A model generated the notes under the pieces. That model made no database searches. It saw only the letters and a list, made by a program, of their open reading frames with translations, and was not told the origin of the DNA. A DNA stretch of 64,000 nucleotides from Cyclobacteriaceae bacterium (GTDB taxonomy: Bacteria; Bacteroidota; Bacteroidia; Cytophagales; Cyclobacteriaceae). Shown one piece after another: positions 3,335 to 52,209 of this stretch; the stretch's first letter is position 1, and each line of letters opens with the position of its first letter. Both the position numbers and the translations under genes were made by a program. Location: NCBI GenBank assembly GCA_016787645.1, contig JAEUUF010000013.1, forward strand, positions 186,001 through 250,000, in the 5' to 3' direction.

Positions 3335-5257
3335 CTAATTCAGTTCGCTGAAGCGCTGGGTATCCAGGATTTCGTAGCGGGAATAGTTACTCTTATACTC
3401 GGGGACCAGTTCCTTCATTAATGCTACCATCTTCAACTCGTTGCGGTCATTGATGAGGTCATTAAAGAGCTCTATATAGCGGTTAATCTCTTCATAAGAG
3501 TACTCCTGGACCCTGGCAATAAGAATTTTCTTGTGATGCGTAGGGATGGTATTCTCCCGGTTGGTTAGGAGTTCCTCGTACAGTTTCTCGCCTTCCCGAA
3601 GTCCCGTAAAGTGAATCTCAATATCGCGTTCCGGCTCAAGCCCAGACAGCCAAATCATTTTTTTTGCCAAGTCAAGTATCTTCATTGACTTGCCCATGTC
3701 GAAGATGTAGATCTCCCCCCCTTGTCCCATCGTGCCCGCTTCCAGTACCAGTTGACATGCCTCCGGGATAGTCATGAAGAACCGGGTGATTTCCGGGTGC
3801 GTAACGGTAACCGGGCCTCCTGCCTCAATTTGCTTCTTGAAAAATGGAATGACTGATCCATTGGATCCCAGCACATTACCAAATCGAGTGGTCACAAACG
3901 ACGTACGATGTGGCTGGGCTCCCTTGTGGTTGTTCAACGATTGCACATAAATCTCGGCAATGCGCTTTGAACACCCCATAACATTGGTGGGGTTCACTGC
4001 CTTGTCGGTAGAGATCATCACAAACTTCTTCACGCCCATTTTGGCAGACAGATCCGCGAGGATCTTGGTACCCAGGATATTGCACGCCACTGCTTCCGAA
4101 GGATGGCTTTCCATCATCGGTACATGCTTGTAGGCCGCCGCGTGGTATACCACGTCAGGCTTTTGCTCCATGAAAATGGCTTCCATCCGCTCCTTGTTGG
4201 TGATGTCCGCGAGGCAGATCATCAACTTGATACCCGGTGCGGCCAGCACCAGTTCACGCTCCAACTCATAAAGTGCCGATTCCGCCTGGTCAATCGCGAT
4301 GATGGCTTCCGGGCGATGCTGAATAACCTGGTGGGCCAATTCACGGCCGATCGATCCTGCTGCTCCAGTGATACAGATTCGTTTTCCCTTCAAGTCGTGT
4401 TCAACATTTTCCCGGTTTAGCCTAATGGCCTCGCGGCCCAACAGATCTTCAATGTTAATCTCTTTGATCTGGTTAATGCTCAACTCACCCTTGGCCCATC
4501 TATCTATCGGGGGAATTAACCGTACCCGAACCCGATGCTGGATACAAAGTTCGACCAGTTCATTCCTCCGCTCTACTTCGATGTCTTTTGAGGCAATCAC
4601 CAATTCATCGAAGGACCGATCTTTCAGGAGTTGCTCGAGTTCCGCATTACCTGCACTGTAAATACGAACCCCATCGAGCACCTTCCCGATCTTGTTTGGG
4701 TCGTCTTCGAGGAATCCCATCACCCTCATTCGTTTTGAGGATTCCACGACGTGACGGGTGATCATCCCCGTCTGGCCTGCGCCCAAAATCAACACCCGTG
4801 AACGTTTGATCATTTGGTCCTCATAATAGGAGAAAATGTACTTAACGAGGAGACGGTAGTTGAACAGGAAAAGGAAAGAGGAAAGGAAGCTGATCATAAC
4901 CACCGAATACGGTACGGCATACGGCAGCTTATTGGAAGCATAGAAAAGATTCACGCCGACTACGAGTGACAGGTTGAGCACCACCATGAAAAAGATTCGG
5001 GCGCCATCCTGCAAACCTGTGTAGCGGATAATCCCCTTGTAACTGCCCGTTGCCAGGATGGCCACCAGGCCGCAAATGGCATACACAATGATGCCGCGTT
5101 GATACTCGTGCAAGACAAGATCGTTGAGTGCGAAGTTGAATCGCAACAAAAATCCGAGGAAAACCGAAAACGAAATAAAGGTCAGGTCAATGAAGATGAT
5201 GACCCAACGCGGTAATATCCGGAGGTTCCGGACCAGTTTGATCCACCAGCGAATCAC
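3335..5257 (-). CDS. CapD/PglF/WbpM-type nucleoside-diphosphate-sugar 4,6-dehydratase
   Basis: A membrane-bound polysaccharide-biosynthesis dehydratase, 640 residues. About four N-terminal membrane segments (residues 17-135) are followed by a CoA-binding-like Rossmann domain (GAGQTG, 159-164) and a catalytic SDR domain with GAAGSIG (298-304). In the active-site stretch STDKAVNPTNVMGCSKR (416-432) the usual SDR tyrosine is replaced by Met427 while Lys431 is kept; this substitution is known in the WbpM/PglF branch, which makes UDP-4-keto-6-deoxy-GlcNAc. The start is GTG at 5257, overlapping the stop of the upstream small gene by 4 bases (GTGA). It is the last gene of the polysaccharide locus. 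Confidence 0.9.
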   Translation of the reverse strand: MIRWWIKLVRNLRILPRWVIIFIDLTFISFSVFLGFLLRFNFALNDLVLHEYQRGIIVYAICGLVAILATGSYKGIIRYTGLQDGARIFFMVVLNLSLVVGVNLFYASNKLPYAVPYSVVMISFLSSFLFLFNYRLLVKYIFSYYEDQMIKRSRVLILGAGQTGMITRHVVESSKRMRVMGFLEDDPNKIGKVLDGVRIYSAGNAELEQLLKDRSFDELVIASKDIEVERRNELVELCIQHRVRVRLIPPIDRWAKGELSINQIKEINIEDLLGREAIRLNRENVEHDLKGKRICITGAAGSIGRELAHQVIQHRPEAIIAIDQAESALYELERELVLAAPGIKLMICLADITNKERMEAIFMEQKPDVVYHAAAYKHVPMMESHPSEAVACNILGTKILADLSAKMGVKKFVMISTDKAVNPTNVMGCSKRIAEIYVQSLNNHKGAQPHRTSFVTTRFGNVLGSNGSVIPFFKKQIEAGGPVTVTHPEITRFFMTIPEACQLVLEAGTMGQGGEIYIFDMGKSMKILDLAKKMIWLSGLEPERDIEIHFTGLREGEKLYEELLTNRENTIPTHHKKILIARVQEYSYEEINRYIELFNDLINDRNELKMVALMKELVPEYKSNYSRYEILDTQRFSELN

Positions 5258-5442
5258 TCTTTGCGGGATGATTTAAAACGTCCAATCAAGTGCCTGACTC
5301 CAAGCAAAGCGCCTCCTCCCAGGAGAAACTCAATGCCCATTATCGGCACATCCGGGTCGCCACCTGGATCGCCCGGTTGGGCCATAACGATTGCCGGCAT
5401 GAAGAACAGGGCGAGTATGAACAGGGTGTTTAGGATCCTCAT
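5254..5442 (-). CDS. 62-residue exosortase substrate-like protein (PID-CTERM-like sorting domain)
   Basis: A very small protein with three parts: a signal peptide (residues 1-22, ending VMAQ); a short acidic Pro/Gly segment, PGDPGGDPDVPI; and one hydrophobic helix (FLLGGGALLGV) followed by a basic tail RFKSSRKE. Motif, helix and basic tail in that order is the layout of PEP-CTERM-like exosortase signals, and the DPDVPI..G motif resembles the PID-CTERM domain of Bacteroidota. After signal-peptide removal almost nothing but the sorting signal remains (about 40 residues). It lies 5 bases after the giant T9SS gene and overlaps the dehydratase gene by 4 bases. ATG at 5442 is chosen because the signal peptide begins there. 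The link to the XrtF gene at 13440-13982 is inferred from context. Confidence 0.75.
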   Translation of the reverse strand: MRILNTLFILALFFMPAIVMAQPGDPGGDPDVPIMGIEFLLGGGALLGVRHLIGRFKSSRKE

Positions 5443-5447
5443 GACGA

Positions 5448-8400
5448 CTACCGGATTATGATCTTGTGTGTGACTGATTTGCTTCCTGAAGACAAGCGCA
5501 GCAGGTACATTCCCCGAGCCATGCTCCGCACATCTAACTCTCCGCTCCACTCGTCATCTCCCGGTAACATTTGAAGCTGGGCTATCACTCTGCCCTGCTG
5601 ATCCAGCAATTGTCCGTTGACCGGGTCGTTCCCAAGTGCATGCACGGTCAGCTTCTCTGATACCGGATTCGGGTACAGGCGGATCACGCGGCTTTCATCC
5701 TCAATGCCGGTAATCAAATCGGTTGCAAAAATGGTATTGGACCAGGCTTCGCATCCCTGGTGATCTACACGAACGGAGTAGTACCCTGGGTCAAATACCC
5801 TGATCGATTGTGCGGTTTCACCGGAAAGCAGCTCACCATCCTTGTACCATTGGTTATTATCGTAGGAAGACTTCAGTACCCCATAGAAGGGAGCATCGAT
5901 AACCGGCTCCTGGAAGTTAGTAACATTCACATCCACCTTCTTCCGGCCAGCAATGGTCGTCTCGCAACCATTGGCATTCACTGCCGAAACGTAGAAAGAT
6001 GTCGGTCCTGAGAATGATCTTGAAGGAAGACTATTTCCCTCATAAATACTCTCCGTGGAAGTCGGGGACTCAAACCACCGATAGGTAAGGCCCGGTTTAG
6101 GGTTAGTAATCGTCACAGAAGATTCAGAATCCTGGCAGAGGCTGGAGGTCCCACCTTCTAGGGTGAAGTTGAAAGTGGTAGAAGGATTAGAATCATCCAC
6201 CACTGCAGGTATTCCAACAGGCGCTGACGCACATCCTTCCGGGCTAAAGGCTTTAACATAAAAGGTCTTTGTGGTAGTCAAAGCACCGGTGCTGAAGGTC
6301 ATATTCCCGACCAGGGGAGAAACGCCATCCGAGTCATACCATTGGTAAGTTGATCCGGCGGGTGCTCCACTGACCGTGATCGTATGACCCTGGCCCTTGC
6401 AAACCTCAGCCTTTGCAAACTGGGCGGTCAGAGTTGGCGTAAACGTGTAAGTAGCGGCGGCCACCTGGATAGGCTCCCTCACGCAGCCAGGAACAGGAGA
6501 ATACCGAACGAAGTAGTTCATTGTCTTACCGATCGTAAATGGCACCTCTTCACTGCTGGCTGTAGTATCAACCGGTGAAGCCTGCGGATCGGCTGAGTCA
6601 TACCAGAAGAACTGACCATCACCCGTAGAGGATGTTGCTGTAAACTTCATGGTTTCATTCTTACAAACAATGGTTGCTGATTGTGCAATCTCCACTGTGG
6701 CTGTCGTATCCCCCACCGCAGTAACCACTTCTACTCGCTGTCCTTCGCAACCAGCGGCATTAACAGCTGCGACGTAAAATGATCTGGATGAGCTGACTTC
6801 AGGGGCATAATTGGCACCTATCGACAAAATGGTTGAGCTGACTGGAGAGTCGTACCAATGATAAGTCCCATCATTGGGCGCGCCGCTGGCTGTCAGGCTA
6901 AAGGTACCCGGCGCACACAACGCTGAAGGAGAACTGGCAGCGGCCTGATAAACAGGTGCCATCTCTACCTGTACCGGGCTTCCGACAGCCAACACCTGGC
7001 ATCCGGAATTTGCTCTTACCGAAATGGTGTTGGCTCCGGATTGAAGTTTATCCTGGTCGACAAAAATGGAGAGGTTGCTTCCGTTACCAGTAACCACATT
7101 AGGATAGTAGGTACCATTGACTTCCACACCATAGGCTATGTTTGGCTGGCTGGCTGCCAGCGTAATCATGGCATCTGATCCGCCGCATGCTACGGGTGCA
7201 GCGGAAACCGTTTTGGCCACATCGATGGCAGGCGCAGTGGCCGTGATGGTAAAGCGAGCACTGCTCTTTGAGGCCGTTATACTGTTATCCACTGAGAAAT
7301 TGTAAACCCCACCCGTCGCAGACAAGGGGATATCGCTTCCGGTGTAATTATCATGGAGCGTCCACGTCATGGACTTCATGGCACCCGTCGGGTTGATGGT
7401 CAGCGTATAGTTGACTACTGTCTCACCGCTATTGATCAGGTTGGTGGTCCGGATATTGAACGTCTGAGTGCAGTTGATAGAAGGTATAGCATTTACTGCC
7501 AGGGCCTTGGGTGTTGCCTCCACGGTTAGCGTTGAAATATCCTGCACCTCGGTAATGGTGGAACCGTTGTCGATGTTGTTATTGAATTTGAATGCATCAT
7601 ACATGTCATACAAACTCGTACTGCCTGAACGAAGTACAATGCGGGCATTGTCGGTGGTACCCGTTGTGCTCTTGGTCAGGTTGAACTCCAGGATATCTTC
7701 CATGGCCTGGTCGAGCCGGTAGAAAGAATACGTACCTGTGGCCTTTGCATTCTCATTGACTGTAAGCGGTGTGGCCGCTACCAATGTTTGAACCCAGAAG
7801 GATTGCCCGGGAGCAATCAGTTGAGGGGTAGCGCTATTGAGGTCAAGAAACTGGTGAACACCGGTCGCATTGTCTCTCACCACCGCGATGTTGGAAAAAC
7901 CTGTCCGTGCCGACCAGCCTGCCGCATTTGCCCAGTTGATTGCTGAAGGATACGGATTTCCAATCAGGCTGTAGTTGCCTGCCGCGGCCGCCACCGGAAG
8001 AGCAACACCCGCTGGCGAAGGATTGGTTCCTGTGAAATTGATAACCACCGTACCCACGGCACCTAAACCGGTATGACGGAAGAAGGCAGAATACCCGCGT
8101 CCGTTGGTAAAGGTTGCGGCACTGGCTAATCCTGAGGCCGGGAACGCCACGTAGGCCTGTGTGGCCTCATCATAATAGAACAGGGAAGGATTATTTGTGT
8201 TACATCCCGTGCAGGGAGGTGTGGATGATCCATCAGAAGGGTCAGTGAAAGTACCCGTTACCGGAATAGCCGCTTTGAGTTGTGCGACTGTTGCACCAAT
8301 TACGGGAGAGGCGATGTACCTGTAAATCCTGTTTTCACTTGACACATAACGTTGAACCGTAAAATTTCCTGAAACATTGCTGGTCGCAGCCGGAATTGTT

Positions 8401-11792: not shown

Positions 11793-12893
11793 TTAGGAGT
11801 TTAAGATCAAGTCAATCACCCTCGAAACTTGGGGTGGGTAACCGCTGGAAGACCCAGCTGGAAGGCAGAGTCCACGTGCAAAAAGTAATTCAGATGCCTG
11901 ACCTCCTACGATGGTTGATTTTTTGAATGCAGGTTGGGTGTGCATAGGCTTCCACAACCTCCTACCTTCCATTCCTTCCTGCCCAAGACGCTCCAAGACT
12001 AGGGCTGGGTCCATGCCATCCGGGAGCAAACAGGCCGCCAGCCAAGGCTGAAAGTCAACATTTGGGCTATTTCGTTGGAAGTTAAGGCCAAGGGACTCCC
12101 CCAATTGATGGTAGGAATGATAGAGGTCTCTCCTTCGCTCCAGCGCGGAAACAGAATTCTCTAACTGCACCAGGCCGTAGGCCGCCGTCAGTGGACTCAT
12201 CCTGTAGTTATATCCCACCACTTCATGAAGGTAGTATGGGACTTCCGAACGAGCATGGGAACTTAAGTACCGGGCATGGTTCACCCATTCATTACGGGAA
12301 GATACCAATGCTCCGCCACCAAATGCGGTGACCGATTTGTTGCTGTTAAAGGAAAAAACACCGAGATCACCCAGGGTACCCGTCCATCTTCCATTGTATT
12401 GTGAACCGAAAGATTCTGCCGCATCCTCGATAAGTGGAACGTTGAATTCTTTTGAAAGGGTTACCAACTCTTCCATTCTTGCTGGCATGCCGTAGTTATG
12501 AACTACTACAATGGCAGCTACGCGGTTGCCTTTCGACAATTCACCATTGATCGCTTCTTTGGTCAATGAAGGATCCATGTTCCACGTTTCAAGTTCGGAA
12601 TCGACCAGCACCAAGCGAGCTCCGAGATACGTGGCCGGACTGATGGTGGCTACATAGGCAAACGTCGGCGCGATGACCACATCGCCTGATTTAACGCCAG
12701 CAACCTGCAGCGCCAGGTGCATGGCCGCTGTACCCGATTGAACCGCCAGTGCATGTGAAGCCCCTGTCTTCCTGCTGAGCTGATTCTCAAACTCTTTCAC
12801 AATCTCCTCGTGATGACGCCCGGCAAAGGACTTCAGGATGCGCGCAAGGGCGTCAGCGTCGATTTCGTTGTAGGAAAGAGGGACGTTGATCAA
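11793..12893 (-). CDS. DegT/DnrJ/EryC1/StrS-family sugar aminotransferase (PglE-like candidate)
   Basis: A PLP-dependent enzyme that transfers an amino group to a keto nucleotide sugar. It has 366 residues, full length for the family. The cofactor contacts are visible: SGTAAMH (residues 53-59), EDAAESFGS (156-164), and the Schiff-base lysine Lys186 in FSFNSNKSVTAFGGG. In the operon it sits between the exosortase pair and the giant T9SS gene, close to a PglF-like dehydratase, a PglD-like acetyltransferase and PglC-like transferase genes. Formation of a UDP-4-amino-4,6-dideoxy-HexNAc is therefore a reasonable inference; the exact substrate cannot be read from sequence. Confidence 0.88.
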   Translation of the reverse strand: MINVPLSYNEIDADALARILKSFAGRHHEEIVKEFENQLSRKTGASHALAVQSGTAAMHLALQVAGVKSGDVVIAPTFAYVATISPATYLGARLVLVDSELETWNMDPSLTKEAINGELSKGNRVAAIVVVHNYGMPARMEELVTLSKEFNVPLIEDAAESFGSQYNGRWTGTLGDLGVFSFNSNKSVTAFGGGALVSSRNEWVNHARYLSSHARSEVPYYLHEVVGYNYRMSPLTAAYGLVQLENSVSALERRRDLYHSYHQLGESLGLNFQRNSPNVDFQPWLAACLLPDGMDPALVLERLGQEGMEGRRLWKPMHTQPAFKKSTIVGGQASELLFARGLCLPAGSSSGYPPQVSRVIDLILNS

Positions 12894-12938: not shown

Positions 12939-13019
12939 GTTCCAGAGGTTCCAAAGGTTCCTAGGGTTCCAGGGGTTCCTGCAGTTTCAGGGGTTTATAG
13001 GGTCCAAGAGGTTCAGGGG
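12939..13019. repeat. Nine tandem 9-bp units (GTTCCAAAG type)
   Basis: Exactly nine 9-base units fill 81 bases. Examples are GTTCCAGAG, GTTCCAAAG, GTTCCTAGG, GTTCCAGGG and GTTCAGGGG. The array reaches into the stop codon of the XrtF-partner gene (stop at 13013-13015). The same unit recurs in three arrays around the four-helix-bundle gene at 53 kb. It lies between two genes of the polysaccharide operon and would be transcribed. Confidence 0.85.
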
Positions 13020-13450
13020 TTAGATTCGCGCCGGCGTTGGTAGTACATGCCGGCTATCAAGATAATCATTAGGAGGGGATTGACGATCATCCGGTGGAGC
13101 GGTTGAAAAACCGGGGATGATATTTCGGTCGGGCCTTCGGCCGACAGCTTGACGACGAGGTAGATCGGCAGCAACAGGAACAACTCACCCAGGAACACCC
13201 AAAGTGCGAGCCTTGTGAAACGCTTGTCATTGAAAATGGTTGACACCAACATAAGGCAGAGTAAATCATTGATTATCAGTCGGCTGGCTCGGTTCACGAT
13301 GAAGGAGGCGGTGGCTGACGGCGGTGACTGTCCCATCCAGCTAGCGAGAATTCCAAGGATGTCGACGCGCTGGAACATGTATACCAGGAAGAGGCCAATT
13401 AAAGCCGCAGCGATCACTGCATGGCGCCTGGTAAACGTATCAGTTGGCAT
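13013..13450 (-). CDS. XrtF-associated membrane protein (exosortase F system partner)
   Basis: A small integral membrane protein of about 145 residues with four predicted transmembrane segments: near AVIAAALIGLFLVYMF, LIINDLLCLMLVST, LALWVFLGELFLLLPIYLVV, and MIVNPLLMIILIAGMYY. Size, topology and position directly after an exosortase match the family always found beside XrtF in Bacteroidota (TIGR04127-like, recalled from memory). Its molecular role is unknown; it may assist the transpeptidase-like exosortase. Two ATG starts are possible (13471 and 13450), both overlapping the exosortase gene; the later one gives the shorter overlap (11 bases). The gene ends inside a 9-bp repeat array. Confidence 0.78.
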   Translation of the reverse strand: MPTDTFTRRHAVIAAALIGLFLVYMFQRVDILGILASWMGQSPPSATASFIVNRASRLIINDLLCLMLVSTIFNDKRFTRLALWVFLGELFLLLPIYLVVKLSAEGPTEISSPVFQPLHRMIVNPLLMIILIAGMYYQRRRESNP

Positions 13451-13982
13451 GGCGTGCGCTTGATGTACCATTCCATCGCGTCACCCAGAACCACCACAGG
13501 ACAAAAACGATCACATAGATCACCGCGGTGAAAAAGTACTTATGGAAGTAGTAGAACAACCTCGCGTTTACGGAGGACAGCCAAAACAGCCAGAGTATAC
13601 GACCTAGGTTAGCGACATGGATGACCAGGAATCCCGTGGGAACAAACCAGAGAATGCTCTGCCTTTGTCCGCCGAACGCCAGCACGAAGGACAGAAACAC
13701 AATCATCACATTTAATCCATTGCACCCTTCAAATACGTTGAGAACTTTCCTGGTTCCTTCGAAAATGAAAACAGTTGGTCCCATAGGGTTTGCTTCGAAA
13801 CTAACATCAGACCCAAACCCCCGCAGAATGGTCGTTACTTCCCTGCTCACTTCCGAGGTCATAGGATCCGGAAGGCTACCGAGCGACTCAATCCAAAGTC
13901 CATACAGGATGCTCAGCCCGAGGTAGCAACCCAGGAAGATTCCAAGGAAACGCAGTGCCGGTTTTACTTCAGCTACCGTCAT
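13440..13982 (-). CDS. xrtF: Exosortase, XrtF type
   Basis: A polytopic membrane transpeptidase-like protein of 180 residues, short compared with XrtA but normal for XrtF. The three exosortase catalytic residues are all visible: Cys87 in FEGCNGLNV, Arg128 in ANLGRILWLF and His147 in YYFHKYFF. Known exosortases cut C-terminal sorting signals of exported proteins in strains that make exopolysaccharide. The gene overlaps the PglD-like gene by 4 bases and is followed by the XrtF partner. The nearest candidate substrate is the 62-residue protein at 5254-5442. The enzyme call is strong; assigning it specifically to XrtF rests on the partner gene and host phylum. Confidence 0.85.
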   Translation of the reverse strand: MTVAEVKPALRFLGIFLGCYLGLSILYGLWIESLGSLPDPMTSEVSREVTTILRGFGSDVSFEANPMGPTVFIFEGTRKVLNVFEGCNGLNVMIVFLSFVLAFGGQRQSILWFVPTGFLVIHVANLGRILWLFWLSSVNARLFYYFHKYFFTAVIYVIVFVLWWFWVTRWNGTSSARHAN

Positions 13983-14623
13983 GCGGTTGGGGGTACATGC
14001 TGTGCCGGAACTCCGATCAGCCGGCTACCTGCAGGAAAAGACTTAGTGACCACAGCGCCGGCACCCACGACAGTATCAGCCTCGATTGTTACACCCTGCA
14101 ATACCCTCGCTCCTGCCCCGATAAAAGTCCTCTCACCAATGGTTACGTTGCCGGAGATGCTGCATTGTGGCATGATGGAAGAGAAATTTCCAAGCTTCAC
14201 ATCATGACCCAGGGTGGTTGCCAGATTGACTATGGCAAATTCTCCGATCACGATGCCCGTCGTGAGTATGACGCCCGCGGTTAGTATGCAACCTTTACCA
14301 AATACATTGTCGGGCGCTCCTCGCAACACGGATGGATGAATTACTACGGGAAAGTGGATTCGGTGATTTGTGATCGCCTTAACGCATTTACTACGGATCT
14401 GCGGGTTGGCGATAGCAATGACAAGTTCAAGAGGCTCTCCATATTGGTTGACTTCCTTCAGCCCTCCCAATACCGGAAGACCATCCACTAACACTCCAGG
14501 CTTCAATCCGTCATCAAAGAAACCGATGAGATTCCAGGATTCATCGTGCTGGGCGATTTCATGTATGAGCCAGGCGGTCTCCCTACCAAATCCGCCTGCA
14601 CCGTAAATGGCAATGTCTTTCAT
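13979..14623 (-). CDS. PglD/NeuD-like sugar O/N-acyltransferase
   Basis: A 214-residue acetyltransferase of the NeuD/PglD/VioB family. The N-terminal Rossmann-like domain has the motif IAIYGAGGFGRE (residues 4-15) and binds the nucleotide sugar. The C-terminal half is a left-handed beta-helix of hexapeptide repeats (about 105-205), with the likely catalytic base His140 in TLGHDVKLG. Such enzymes use acetyl-CoA to N-acetylate UDP-4-amino sugars. With the dehydratase and an aminotransferase in the same operon it would complete a UDP-diNAc-bacillosamine-type pathway (inference). Start ATG at 14623 overlaps the stop of the sugar transferase gene (ATGA). Confidence 0.85.
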   Translation of the reverse strand: MKDIAIYGAGGFGRETAWLIHEIAQHDESWNLIGFFDDGLKPGVLVDGLPVLGGLKEVNQYGEPLELVIAIANPQIRSKCVKAITNHRIHFPVVIHPSVLRGAPDNVFGKGCILTAGVILTTGIVIGEFAIVNLATTLGHDVKLGNFSSIMPQCSISGNVTIGERTFIGAGARVLQGVTIEADTVVGAGAVVTKSFPAGSRLIGVPAQHVPPTA

Positions 14624-15237
14624 TGGGGGTCAGGGGTCAGGGTCGAGGGGTCAGTACTGCCCTGGAACGGTTCCTCCTCGAGTGAAATATCCTTCTTGAA
14701 AGACAAAAGTAGCACAATGGTCTTAAAGATTATCCGAAGGTCCACCCGGAAGGACTGGTGGTCAACATACCAGTTGTCCAGCTCGAATTTCCTTTCCCAA
14801 GGGATACCATGACGGCCGTTGACCTGGGCCCAGCCGGTGATCCCGGGCTTGACCGTAAACCGCTTCCTCTGTTCGGCGGAAAAGAGAGGTTGATAGGTCA
14901 CAGGCAACGGCCTGGGGCCCACCAGCGACATCTCTCCTTTCAGGATATTCCACAATTGAGGAAGTTCATCAAGGCTGAGATAGCGGAGAAAGGATCCCAG
15001 GGTGAACTTTCGCTTATCCAAGGGCAGATGCTCATTGGCTTTCAAGGTCCTGAACTTGTAAAGCGTAAATGCTTTCTCATTCCGACCCAACCGCTCCTGA
15101 CGAAAGAACAAGGATCTCTCGCCGGTAAGGAGGTAGAGAAGTCCAACAAGGAGAAAGAGCCAGCTCAGCAACACCAGCAGAATCGCTGCCGCGAGGGTAT
15201 CCGCCAAACCCTTTATAAAAAGATAGGTTGAATTCAT
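14620..15237 (-). CDS. Initiating sugar-phosphate transferase, PglC/WcaJ-type
   Basis: A polyprenyl-phosphate phosphoglycosyl transferase of 205 residues. It moves a sugar-1-phosphate from a UDP sugar to undecaprenyl phosphate on the inner membrane. It has one N-terminal re-entrant/membrane helix (about residues 11-37), then FRQERLGRN, YKFRTL, the catalytic Asp90-Glu91 dyad in SLDELPQLWN, and SLVGPRP. The small PglC-like size and neighbouring PglD-like gene suggest an N-acetylated amino sugar as substrate. Its last 12 or so codons are encoded by a 7-bp tandem repeat (GGGGTCA), giving a low-complexity STDPSTLTPDPQ tail. Confidence 0.88.
   Translation of the reverse strand: MNSTYLFIKGLADTLAAAILLVLLSWLFLLVGLLYLLTGERSLFFRQERLGRNEKAFTLYKFRTLKANEHLPLDKRKFTLGSFLRYLSLDELPQLWNILKGEMSLVGPRPLPVTYQPLFSAEQRKRFTVKPGITGWAQVNGRHGIPWERKFELDNWYVDHQSFRVDLRIIFKTIVLLLSFKKDISLEEEPFQGSTDPSTLTPDPQ
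14626..14653. repeat. Four tandem 7-bp units (GGGGTCA) inside a coding region
   Basis: Units GGGGTCA, GGGGTCA, GGGTCGA and GGGGTCA lie in the 3' end of the sugar transferase gene, just before its ATGA junction with the acetyltransferase gene. Seven is not a multiple of three, so gain or loss of one unit would shift the frame. Confidence 0.8.
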
Positions 15238-49023: not shown

Positions 49024-51408
49024 TCAGCCTTCATCATAATATCCGTTGCCGGACTTCTTTCTCCTGCCGTAGCCGTATCCATAGGAATATCCATAATGAT
49101 AGGCATAACCCTGACCGTAGCCGTAGCCTAATCCCGACTTATAGATATCATTCAAAAGAATACTCATGTTCTTCAACTTGCCAGATTGATAATACTCGTG
49201 GATACTCCTTACAAATTCTTTCGGTGAGTAATTCTGCCGCAAAACAAACACAGTGTGATTTACAAACTTGGAAATGACAAATGCATCAGTTACCAATGCC
49301 AGAGGAGGAGTGTCAATGATCACGAAATCAAACTGTTCTAATCCGTGCTTAACAAATAATTCAAATCTATCCGTCAGCAACAATTCAGACGGGTTGGGTG
49401 GAACAGGGCCTCCACTGACCAGGTAAAGGTTCTCAATATCAGTATCCTGCACAACATCCTTGAATTCAGAAATACCGGAAAGAAAGGTGCTTAATCCGGT
49501 CTCGTTTTTCCTCTTGAAATCCTCATATATTTTCGGCCTACGCATATCAGCACCCACAATGAGGGTTCTCTTTCCGGATAGAGCAAAAACAGTAGCCAGG
49601 TTAATGGTAGTGAAAGTCTTCCCTTCCCCACTGATAGAACTACTCACCATAAATACCTGCTTTGTCACATTTCCGGTGAAGTAGTTAAGATTTGAACGCA
49701 GAGCACGAAAGGACTCCGCGACGCCTGACTTGGGGCGCTCTTTCACCGTCAAGTTATTTCCAGTTTCATTGTGACCGATACCACCCACAAAAGGAATCGA
49801 GGACATCTTCTCAATATCCTCCTTTGACTGAACTTTGTTGTTCATTATTTCAAAAAGGATAAAAACAATGAAAGGGAGGATTAGACCAATCGTAGTTGCT
49901 GTTGTATAATTCTGGGTGGGTTTCGGCGATATGGCTCCACCCTGCATAGGTGGATTGACCGGAATCACATCTGACGTGTTAGATGCCTTTGAAATGCCTG
50001 CCTCTGATAATTTTTGCATCAAAAAAACGTAGAGATTTTCAAGCAATGAGTAATTGCGCTGAACTGAAATCAACTGACGCTCGGAGGCCGGAAGAAGCGA
50101 AAGCTGCCTGTCAGTTTCCTTTAATTGCTTAGCCAGAAAATCCATCTTTATCTTGTCAGTAGATTTTAAGGTCATCACTGACTCAATAACATTTCGCTTG
50201 ATCTCTTTGATACGTTCCATTTTGCTCATAACAAGCGGGTTCCTACCTCGCTCAGGGTCAACGTACAGTTTGATTTCTAATTGGAGATCTATCATTTTGG
50301 ATAACAACGTTCCAAGCACTGGATCTGATAAACCGATAGAAGAAGGCAAAATCACTTGATCAAGGTTTCCCTCATTCTCATTAAGATATTCCTCGAGATA
50401 TTGATAGTAATTTTGCCGAATTAACAATTCAGTTTTTTGTATTTCAAATGCCTCAGCTTTGGTGAATAGTCGCTGAGCCTCAGTGCTCATATCTTTGATT
50501 CGGCTGCTGTTGCCAAACCTTTCCAACTGGAATTCCACGGTCCGTAAGGAATCCTTGATGTTTATTAATTGTGTTCTGATGAATTCTATTGTTCGGTCCG
50601 CCGTTTCATTTTTCTTATCGAGATCCAACTGCCGATAGGAGGCAACAAGGCCATTCAAAAAGTCAATCTCTTTTTCAGGATTTGTTCCATTGATGCTAAG
50701 GTTAATCACACCAGATCCTTCCTCTGCCCAACTGACATTAAGCCTACCAATGTATGACCCTGCCACATCGCGAACATTCCTCATGACCAACAAGAATGGC
50801 ACACCGATATAAGCATTCAGGTTCCTTTCCGGGATTCTCCTAATGCAAAGCATTGCCTTCCCGAATTCAATTGAGTCACCTAACTGAAAAATCTGATCCT
50901 TTTCACCACTCATCCCATCTGAATACCCACTTAAAGTGTACTTATTCTCGTCTAACAAGGTAAAAACAAACTGTCCGGTGCTCGTGTTTCTCGAATCGCA
51001 CCATTCAGCCGTAACAGGAATGTAACTGTATGCTTCCGTAGTCATGAAATACCCTTCGCGGTAAAACGAGACATTGAAATTCAAATCCCTAATGACTTTC
51101 TCAATAAGCGGGTATGACCTGATAATATAAGGTTCATTCAGGTAGTTCCTGTAAGGATCAATAAGAGCGTTTTTGTACAATAATTCAGCCCCCCCCGTTT
51201 CCTGAGTTTCCCTGAGAACAATTGAAGCTGAAACCGGGTAAATACGCTGACTATACCGCGTCTGGTAAAACGCAATAGTCAATGCAACACCAAGAGACAA
51301 CACTATAACATACCAGAAGCGGATGGCCCTGGCAATAACCCTCTTGAAGTCCAAAGTGAAACCCTGGGGCTGATGCTTTTCTTCTCCATCAAAGAATGTC
51401 TCGCTCAC
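49024..51408 (-). CDS. wzc: Wzc-type polysaccharide copolymerase with tyrosine autokinase domain
   Basis: A 794-residue inner-membrane protein that controls chain length and export. The Wzz-like part has a transmembrane segment near residues 30-50 and a second near 505-525 after a long coiled-coil periplasmic region. The cytoplasmic BY-kinase domain has Walker A SSSISGEGKTFTTINLA, Walker A' GADMRRPK, and Walker B FDFVIIDTPP. The last 40 residues carry a cluster of eleven tyrosines in a Gly/Tyr-rich tail, the site of autophosphorylation in the family. A run of eight G (C8 on the plus strand, 51189-51196) lies near codon 70. It directly follows wza. Confidence 0.93.
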   Translation of the reverse strand: MSETFFDGEEKHQPQGFTLDFKRVIARAIRFWYVIVLSLGVALTIAFYQTRYSQRIYPVSASIVLRETQETGGAELLYKNALIDPYRNYLNEPYIIRSYPLIEKVIRDLNFNVSFYREGYFMTTEAYSYIPVTAEWCDSRNTSTGQFVFTLLDENKYTLSGYSDGMSGEKDQIFQLGDSIEFGKAMLCIRRIPERNLNAYIGVPFLLVMRNVRDVAGSYIGRLNVSWAEEGSGVINLSINGTNPEKEIDFLNGLVASYRQLDLDKKNETADRTIEFIRTQLINIKDSLRTVEFQLERFGNSSRIKDMSTEAQRLFTKAEAFEIQKTELLIRQNYYQYLEEYLNENEGNLDQVILPSSIGLSDPVLGTLLSKMIDLQLEIKLYVDPERGRNPLVMSKMERIKEIKRNVIESVMTLKSTDKIKMDFLAKQLKETDRQLSLLPASERQLISVQRNYSLLENLYVFLMQKLSEAGISKASNTSDVIPVNPPMQGGAISPKPTQNYTTATTIGLILPFIVFILFEIMNNKVQSKEDIEKMSSIPFVGGIGHNETGNNLTVKERPKSGVAESFRALRSNLNYFTGNVTKQVFMVSSSISGEGKTFTTINLATVFALSGKRTLIVGADMRRPKIYEDFKRKNETGLSTFLSGISEFKDVVQDTDIENLYLVSGGPVPPNPSELLLTDRFELFVKHGLEQFDFVIIDTPPLALVTDAFVISKFVNHTVFVLRQNYSPKEFVRSIHEYYQSGKLKNMSILLNDIYKSGLGYGYGQGYAYHYGYSYGYGYGRRKKSGNGYYDEG

Positions 51409-52209
51409 TTATTTTGTTATTACTATGATATTGACCGTTAAGAGAAGCAGAGTCAGGGTGGAAACAACTAATGCCAGGTTCTGCCCGAAATATTTTCTGA
51501 AAGGACGTTGCTTAAGAGAGGGTACGATAAGCACATCATTTTGATAAACATAATAATTGGGTGAATTGATAAAATCCTCACTTAGAAGATTCAGGTACTG
51601 AACATCGGTCTTCCCATCGTGCTGCCGAATCAGCTTAACGTTTGCCCGGTCGGCCAAATCAGTCATACCACCCGCCAATCCAAGTGCCTCCAGGATTGTA
51701 ACGCGATTGTTGCCAATAGTTACTGTTCCCTCTCTTGTGACCTCACCCAATATGGTAAACCGGAAATTTATCAACCTGACTTTGACTACTGGCTGATCCA
51801 AATACTGCTTTGCAATACGCTGCAAAGTGTCCTGAACAGCAAACACAGTCATGCCGGCTACCTTTACTTTGCCTAAAAAGGGAAACGGAATCTCACCTTG
51901 ATGATCCACCAATTCTCCAATAAGCAATGCATTTCCCTGGGTAAGGTTGATGTTTTGGTTTTGCAGCGCCTGATTCTGGCTTAAGAAGTCAAAATCTTTA
52001 GGAGTCAAACTTTCGAACTTCACAGATATGATATCTTCAGGCTGAATCTTGTACTCAAAGTTGACAGGCTGATAAGAACGTACAACTGTGTCAATCGGGA
52101 GACCTTTCTTATTCACATCATCCTTTTGTAGCATAACAAACTTCTTGTTGGTGACACATGAAGCCCCTGACATCACAATCATCAAGAAGACAACAAGCCT
52201 AAATAACAT
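51409..52209 (-). CDS. wza: Wza-like polysaccharide export lipoprotein
   Basis: A 266-residue outer-membrane export protein. The N-terminal lipoprotein signal ends in the lipobox MSGASC (Cys at about residue 17). The polysaccharide export domain begins [16 protein letters not shown], and the SLBB-type region includes [27 protein letters not shown]-terminal hydrophobic helix ([20 protein letters not shown]) is usual in Bacteroidota members. With Wzc directly downstream it forms the secretion complex. A candidate TACTTTTG box lies 68 bases upstream (52277-52284). Confidence 0.92.

Follow-up and report, generated by a model that had tools for sequence, protein, structure and literature searches.

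Short tail-only proteins of Bacteroidota, their exosortases and a possible partnership with type IX secretion cargo

The gene at positions 5254–5442 (reverse strand) of the window, i.e., the whole stretch of 64,000 nucleotides analysed here, encodes a 62-residue tail-only protein, P0001. It is a member of a family of short tail-only proteins that is spread across the phylum and is related to PID-CTERM (NCBIfam NF046080). The link between this family and an exosortase is strongly supported and holds for nearly all of the carriers that were searched. The wider partner of P0001, which was missed by the sequence-only reading, is a cargo of the type IX secretion system (T9SS). The T9SS pairing is common, not universal, and most of the small genes examined lie directly behind the gene of a large T9SS protein. 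By analogy with known systems, we propose with about even confidence that P0001 would be a dedicated substrate of the exosortase XrtF and a trans-acting partner of the upstream T9SS cargo.

Architecture of P0001 and its family

P0001 (MRILNTLFILALFFMPAIVMAQPGDPGGDPDVPIMGIEFLLGGGALLGVRHLIGRFKSSRKE; translation of window:5254-5442:-) was delimited by translation and family alignments, and all of its parts are on the reverse strand. From the sequence, residues 1–21 (5380–5442) are a predicted signal peptide with a predicted cut before Q22. The alignment of 15 relatives places a mature linker rich in Pro, Gly, and Asp, QPGDPGGDPDV, at residues 22–32 (5347–5379). The linker leads into the motif PIMGIE (residues 33–38; 5329–5346), a PI-x-G-x-E variant of the PID motif, and the sequence and alignments show a Gly-rich hydrophobic stretch and a basic tail in residues 39–62 (5257–5328). 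Q22 is present in at least 90% of the 15 relatives and occupies the same place in most of the homologues read; the Q-rule reported for Bacteroidetes agrees with the cut before this residue (PMC5837995). The predicted signal-peptidase site is separated from the PI motif by 11 residues in P0001 and by 7–19 residues in the relatives measured. If an exosortase cut near the motif, about a dozen residues would remain; both cut sites are predictions.

A Pfam scan of P0001 gave no domain, and its only match in NCBIfam was PID_CTERM (13.4 bits, cut-off 26). No barrel family matched the 62-residue protein in NCBIfam or Pfam, and P0001 is thus not a FadL-type barrel of the PorP/SprF kind by this measure. 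Translation, Pfam and NCBIfam together confirm the earlier description of the protein as a signal peptide, motif, hydrophobic stretch and basic tail with no cargo domain. The mature part of about 40 residues given in the same description agrees with the 41 residues left by the predicted cut, but this length includes the helix and tail, and the stretch before the motif has only the 11 residues mentioned above. P0001 shares with PID-CTERM the three parts of the tail, namely a Pro motif with an acidic residue (E38), a Gly-rich hydrophobic helix, and a basic end. It differs from PID-CTERM in falling below the cut-off and in having the acidic residue further along (PI-x-G-x-E versus PID).

With P0001 as the query, matches were found in 32 of 58 genomes (E ≤ 0.05), a count that includes its own genome and is drawn mostly from the same genus; the G019 row is a signal peptide alone and no family member, and the matches in G047 and G052 are weak. 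Nine positions (P23, P26, P33, I34, G36, E38, L40, G44, and G48) are invariant in 15 aligned homologues, the consensus of which is AQPG...VPI[T/S]GIE-L. A chance ORF is ruled out by this conservation. Searches at E ≤ 0.01 found the family in 89 of the 291 order genomes with a profile from the 15 relatives and in 106 of the 395 phylum genomes with a broader profile; profiles A1 and A3 were built in part from genomes that were subsequently searched. The homologues read in the fetched loci consist of a signal peptide, a short linker, the motif, a hydrophobic stretch, and a basic tail. Because they share this layout and P0001 scores below the PID_CTERM cut-off, the tail-only build is usual in the family and P0001 is a divergent form. 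The tail-only scripts considered ORFs of at most 180, 200, or 220 codons only; therefore, a tail on a long protein would escape them. Open frames listed in the order search were mostly shorter than 200 codons, with five of 150 among the matches listed measuring 200–273 codons (stop to stop), and the largest among the matches listed in the phylum search was 182 codons.

Outside the PI-x-G-x-E group, the motif in the family alignment is mostly PIDGG or near it. P0001 aligns over its full length with PIDGG members, and PID_CTERM of NCBIfam matches 31 of the 35 members of a diverse small-protein alignment (E ≤ 0.1). Profile A1, which was made from PI-x-G-x-E proteins of Cyclobacteriaceae, finds a PIDGG protein from another family (L055, 6.0e-12). 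A second substrate was looked for in the genome of P0001: the PID_CTERM search gave three further matches, all under the cut-off (10.4–15.2 bits), and the profile A1 search gave one match only. The term PID-CTERM was not found in the literature searched, and the NCBI curators of NF046080 may know part of what is described here. Linkers with a cysteine pair (CPKPPC, CPGGPPC) were seen in L022, L024, L025, L027, L030, and L047.

Exosortase co-occurrence, gene order and motif

The exosortase of the locus, XrtF (13440–13982, reverse strand), has C87, R128, and H147 and scores 109.1 bits against TIGR04128 (cut-off 90); against the related XrtX model, the same ORF scores 121.5 bits, which is under the cut-off of 170. 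An exosortase F system-associated membrane protein is encoded at 13013–13471 on the same strand (TIGR04127, 39.5 bits, cut-off 35). Genomes were searched for exosortases with the model TIGR04178. In the order (291 genomes, 118 with an exosortase), 85 genomes had both the exosortase and the small protein, four had the small protein only, 33 had the exosortase only, and 169 had neither, so that 85 of the 89 carriers have an exosortase. The corresponding numbers for the phylum (395 genomes) were 91, 15, 52, and 237. Of the phylum carriers, 91 of 106 thus had an exosortase at E ≤ 0.01; tightening the small-protein limit to E ≤ 1e-3 left 88 of 89 and dropped three rows with an exosortase and 14 without. 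Many homologues without an exosortase, which the sequence-only reading had named as evidence against itself, were looked for and did not turn up. Such carriers numbered four of 89 in the order (G123, G147, G231, and G236) and 15 of 106 in the phylum, where the small-protein E-values were 3.8e-4 to 9.7e-3, or one of 89 at the stricter limit (G444). Conversely, exosortase genomes without a small-protein match amounted to 33 of 118 in the order and 52 of 143 in the phylum.

Among the 58 relatives, G004, G010, G029, and G034 have a small-protein match and no XrtF match, and G012, G013, G021, and G022 have an XrtF match and no small-protein match. The G034 contig starts within the giant gene, and the G012 and G013 contigs stop within it; therefore, the missing gene in these three genomes may lie off the contig.

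Since shared ancestry inflates counts of co-occurrence, gene order weighs more. In at least 29 places in at least 28 genomes, the small gene and an exosortase match share a strand, with the small gene 230–544 bp upstream; at least 43 of the 89 carriers of the order have an exosortase match within 12 kb of the small gene.

The motif provides a further indication. In an alignment of 46 exosortases, the Cys and Arg are present in all 46 sequences and the His in 44. The 25 rows whose locus has a PI-x-G-x-E protein form one group in the tree of these 46 exosortases (support 100/100). G283 and G140 are also Cyclobacteriaceae, and their exosortases are placed elsewhere in the tree and their small proteins have PIDGG. 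When the tree was extended by two rows, G140 and G013 (the small gene of the latter being off its contig), the group was again supported at 100/100, with the G013 row inside. A single clade of the 28 Cyclobacteriaceae exosortase rows was rejected (p-AU 0.0037); this 28-row group includes L064–L066 and L068, which were assigned by the analyst, and it was named after the first tree had been seen. Because PI-x-G-x-E goes with one exosortase clade while G140 and G283 of the same family combine other exosortases with PIDGG, the motif follows the enzyme and not the species. This split is what substrate-enzyme matching predicts, and it is hard to reconcile with species descent alone. The co-occurrence, the gene order, and the motif that follows the enzyme clade all support the earlier suggestion of an exosortase-type signal with XrtF as the likely enzyme.

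Neighbours of the small gene and competing explanations

The small gene is located in a cassette within a polysaccharide locus. Its TGA overlaps, as GTGA, with the GTG start of a gene (3335–5257, reverse strand) for a 640-residue protein of the nucleotide-sugar 4,6-dehydratase type with a hydrophobic N-terminal part (Pfam Polysacc_synt_2, 3e-118). Further genes on the reverse strand encode a LegC-like aminotransferase (11793–12893; 366 aa; TIGR04181, 301 bits, below the cut-off of 420), a sugar acetyltransferase of the NeuD/PglD type (13979–14623; TIGR03570, 196 bits, cut-off 160.8), and a sugar-phosphate transferase of the EPS type (14620–15237; TIGR03025, 215 bits, below the cut-off of 295.55). 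All 20 Cyclobacteriaceae loci that were selected for having XrtF and the small gene on one contig contain the acetyltransferase, XrtF, the associated protein, the aminotransferase, the giant gene, the small gene, and the dehydratase. This order is kept in 19 of them, and the aminotransferase gene has moved in L073. The sugar genes of the cassette suggest an amino sugar, which could supply an amine for XrtF. Two ORFs at the distal end of this polysaccharide locus (49024–52209) look by eye like polysaccharide export proteins of the Wzc and Wza types.

The giant ORF directly upstream of P0001 (5448–11729, reverse strand) encodes a secreted protein of 2,093 residues with CHU_C-associated Ig-like domains and a T9SS type A sorting domain (Pfam Ig_7 and Por_Secre_tail). 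The sorting domain scores 40.9 and 41.6 bits against TIGR04183 (cut-off 23), and P0001 starts 5 bp past the TAG of this ORF. A ribosomal frameshift fusion of cargo and tail was set aside by reasoning, since the small protein carries a signal peptide of its own.

We compared the C-termini of upstream proteins with TIGR04183 in three sets of loci, which overlap at a few loci; a match was defined by E ≤ 0.01 instead of the curated cut-off. The first set held 70 distinct small genes, 65 of which had an upstream same-strand ORF of more than 150 aa within 500 bp; 62 of these 65 matched, three did not, and the other five small genes had no qualifying upstream ORF. In the second set (30 of the best loci of the phylum search, minus five repeats and L133, which lacks an upstream ORF), 22 of 24 matched. 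The third set, with 40 matches out of 42, consisted of 36 upstream C-termini from multi-copy genomes and those of six flavobacterial loci that were picked because a T9SS neighbour had been seen; it omits pairs of the first set and two small genes for which no upstream ORF was found. Apart from the six flavobacterial loci, the loci were chosen for the small gene, or for the small gene and the exosortase, and not for T9SS. There are 23 TIGR04183 matches in the genome of P0001, 22 of them over the cut-off, and one is the neighbour of P0001; the six multi-copy genomes have from 49 to at least 150. From this base rate and the genome size, we estimate that chance alone would place a T9SS cargo upstream in no more than a few per cent of cases. 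Nine cargoes were scanned with Pfam (E ≤ 0.001): six gave matches, with the sorting domain in all six, and the remaining three, all from G283, gave none. Some of the six also have Ig-like, lamin-tail, fn3, FlgD-type Ig, or MG2 domains.

In the 20 Flavobacteriaceae-like regions, the neighbours of which were named by eye, only six of 21 small genes lie behind a T9SS cargo; the upstream gene of the L185-edge copy is outside the view. Twelve of the 21 adjoin riboflavin-synthase-like and pdxA-like genes and have no T9SS neighbour upstream. These loci are L180–L184, L188, L189, L191, L192, and L194–L196, and five of the twelve are also beside a methylmalonyl-CoA-epimerase-like gene. An upstream T9SS cargo was likewise absent at L133, L156 (second copy), L167, and L200, in G140, and from several exosortase-adjacent copies. 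Because of the exceptions in the Flavobacteriaceae-like loci, G140, and the exosortase-adjacent copies, the T9SS pairing is only common, whereas the exosortase link is near universal.

These neighbourhoods bear on the idea that P0001 serves generally as an anchor or acceptor at the surface, with XrtF attaching the locus polysaccharide or a lipid to it and the T9SS neighbour being incidental. The dehydratase, acetyltransferase, and aminotransferase genes around the cassette are in line with this idea, as are the solo copies without T9SS neighbours. However, T9SS cargo is encoded upstream of the small gene in different orders and classes, and single genomes contain many separate pairs of this kind, whereas the dehydratase neighbour was found in Cyclobacteriaceae loci only; the 20 loci fetched outside this family gave one weak dehydratase match (25%). 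We regard the anchor or acceptor role as a minor but real possibility. The link to a glycan dehydratase drawn in the sequence-only reading holds for the GTGA overlap, but such a neighbour was seen in Cyclobacteriaceae loci only, while the T9SS cargo recurs widely.

Pairs of cargo and small gene often share a 4-bp stop/start overlap. Together with the tiny mature part, this operonic pairing would also suit a holding or quality factor that docks the T9SS cargo at the inner membrane until XrtF cleavage releases it and that has no lasting surface role. G283, in which one exosortase was found, is informative here. It has 11 small genes, each behind a different large ORF (L105 and L140–L148; in L143, the two genes are 341 bp apart and the C-terminus is unclear). 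Its linkers and motifs are conserved and its cargo C-terminal domains (CTDs) are widely different, which does not suggest cargo-specific docking and makes a holding factor unlikely. Across the six multi-copy genomes, small-protein identity and cargo-CTD identity were not consistently correlated (Spearman coefficients of 0.76 in G446, 0.67 in G376, 0.76 in G047, 0.48 in G506, 0.29 in G283, and −0.27 in G602); therefore, no CTD-specific recognition is indicated, and CTD-specific pairing is not claimed. Tandem cargo-small-cargo-small arrays with identical or nearly identical small proteins were observed in L152, L166, and L159, and a second small copy of G356 is split between two frames at 7550–7800 of L159.

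In five of the six multi-copy genomes, the exception being G047, copies resemble one another more closely in the linker than in the signal peptide. In G283, the identities between copies are 25% for signal peptides, 70% for linkers, and 76% for the motif plus helix, and from these values the peptide itself seems to be constrained. The mature peptides of this genome are nearly identical, with QGAPPAT or a close variant in the 11 copies, as might be expected if a released oligopeptide (about 7–20 residues, Pro/Gly-rich, and probably with pyroglutamate) served for signalling or as a sacrificial exosortase regulator. Such a free peptide would leave the pairing with T9SS cargo without a reason, and we consider it very improbable. 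An uncleaved small membrane subunit that stabilises the exosortase can hardly be expected, for although the small gene is directly upstream of exosortase genes in at least 28 genomes, up to 11 copies per exosortase found occur on several contigs, and XrtF loci already have a separate associated membrane protein.

A possible trans-acting role of P0001

The proposal that P0001 is an XrtF substrate and a trans-acting partner of the upstream cargo draws on the analogy with three systems. The first is PEP-CTERM/exosortase together with archaeosortase A, the substrates of which are reported to be cleaved and lipidated (PMC7157517). P0001 and its locus share with them the N-terminal signal peptide, the C-terminal motif-helix-basic tail, and a Cys-Arg-His exosortase. 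In contrast to PEP-CTERM proteins, P0001 has no cargo domain, the tail being almost the whole protein, and its likely cargo is encoded by a separate upstream gene with another export signal. The second is the attachment of type A T9SS cargo to A-LPS in Porphyromonas gingivalis, which is described as proceeding through a linking sugar (PMC7468200, PMC9143113). In that system, type A cargo is likewise joined to a glycolipid at the surface, and the XrtF cassette has sugar genes. However, XrtF is a membrane exosortase and not PorU, the T9SS sortase, and the likely substrate of XrtF is not the cargo itself. The third is type B CTD cargo, which is reported to use a cognate, often linked PorP/SprF partner (PMC12618676; PMC9143113). 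The likeness, in how it works only, is that a T9SS cargo is genetically linked to a dedicated secretion or anchoring partner; the differences are that the CTD here is of type A and that the partner is a short single-helix exosortase-type substrate with no barrel.

In the proposed mechanism, P0001 would be exported by Sec, and signal peptidase would expose Q22, which could become pyroglutamate. The hydrophobic stretch would keep the protein in the inner membrane, where XrtF may cut near PI-x-G-x-E via an enzyme thioester and transfer the C-terminus thus formed to a lipid or lipid-linked sugar that bears an amine. In Cyclobacteriaceae, the acceptor is perhaps an amino sugar made by the same cassette. 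The short peptide conjugate would then anchor or deliver the co-encoded T9SS cargo at the outer membrane. More generally, and somewhat short of even confidence, exosortases F, X, and Y of Bacteroidota may process cargo-less peptides rather than proteins with cargo. These peptides would then act in trans in the anchoring or delivery of type IX cargo, and a single exosortase would serve many cargo-peptide pairs.

If this is true, two secretion routes are joined at one operon. A 2025 paper describes the targets of XrtF as still unknown (PMC12188702). The P0001 family offers a specific candidate substrate with a defined motif, and it indicates T9SS cargo as what the exosortase system serves. Both the identity of the XrtF substrate and the way in which type A cargo is anchored outside the A-LPS model thereby become testable. 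A link between exosortase and T9SS was not found in the literature searched. According to one report, a Flavobacterium johnsoniae xrtF deletion mutant forms much less biofilm and no zorbs, as do porV, porU, and sprA deletion mutants, and mutants outside T9SS, e.g., in Fjoh_0334, share this phenotype (PMC10936215). The xrtF phenotype is compatible with the T9SS-partner model, but its occurrence in mutants outside T9SS counts against the model, as does the description of pyroglutamate as no generic sorting signal (PMC5837995). In the same F. johnsoniae report, the deletion phenotype listed for Fjoh_0651, a small hypothetical gene, is that of xrtF, and the complementing fragment was 434 bp with the promoter included (PMC10936215). 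Fjoh_0651 could be the tail-only protein of F. johnsoniae.
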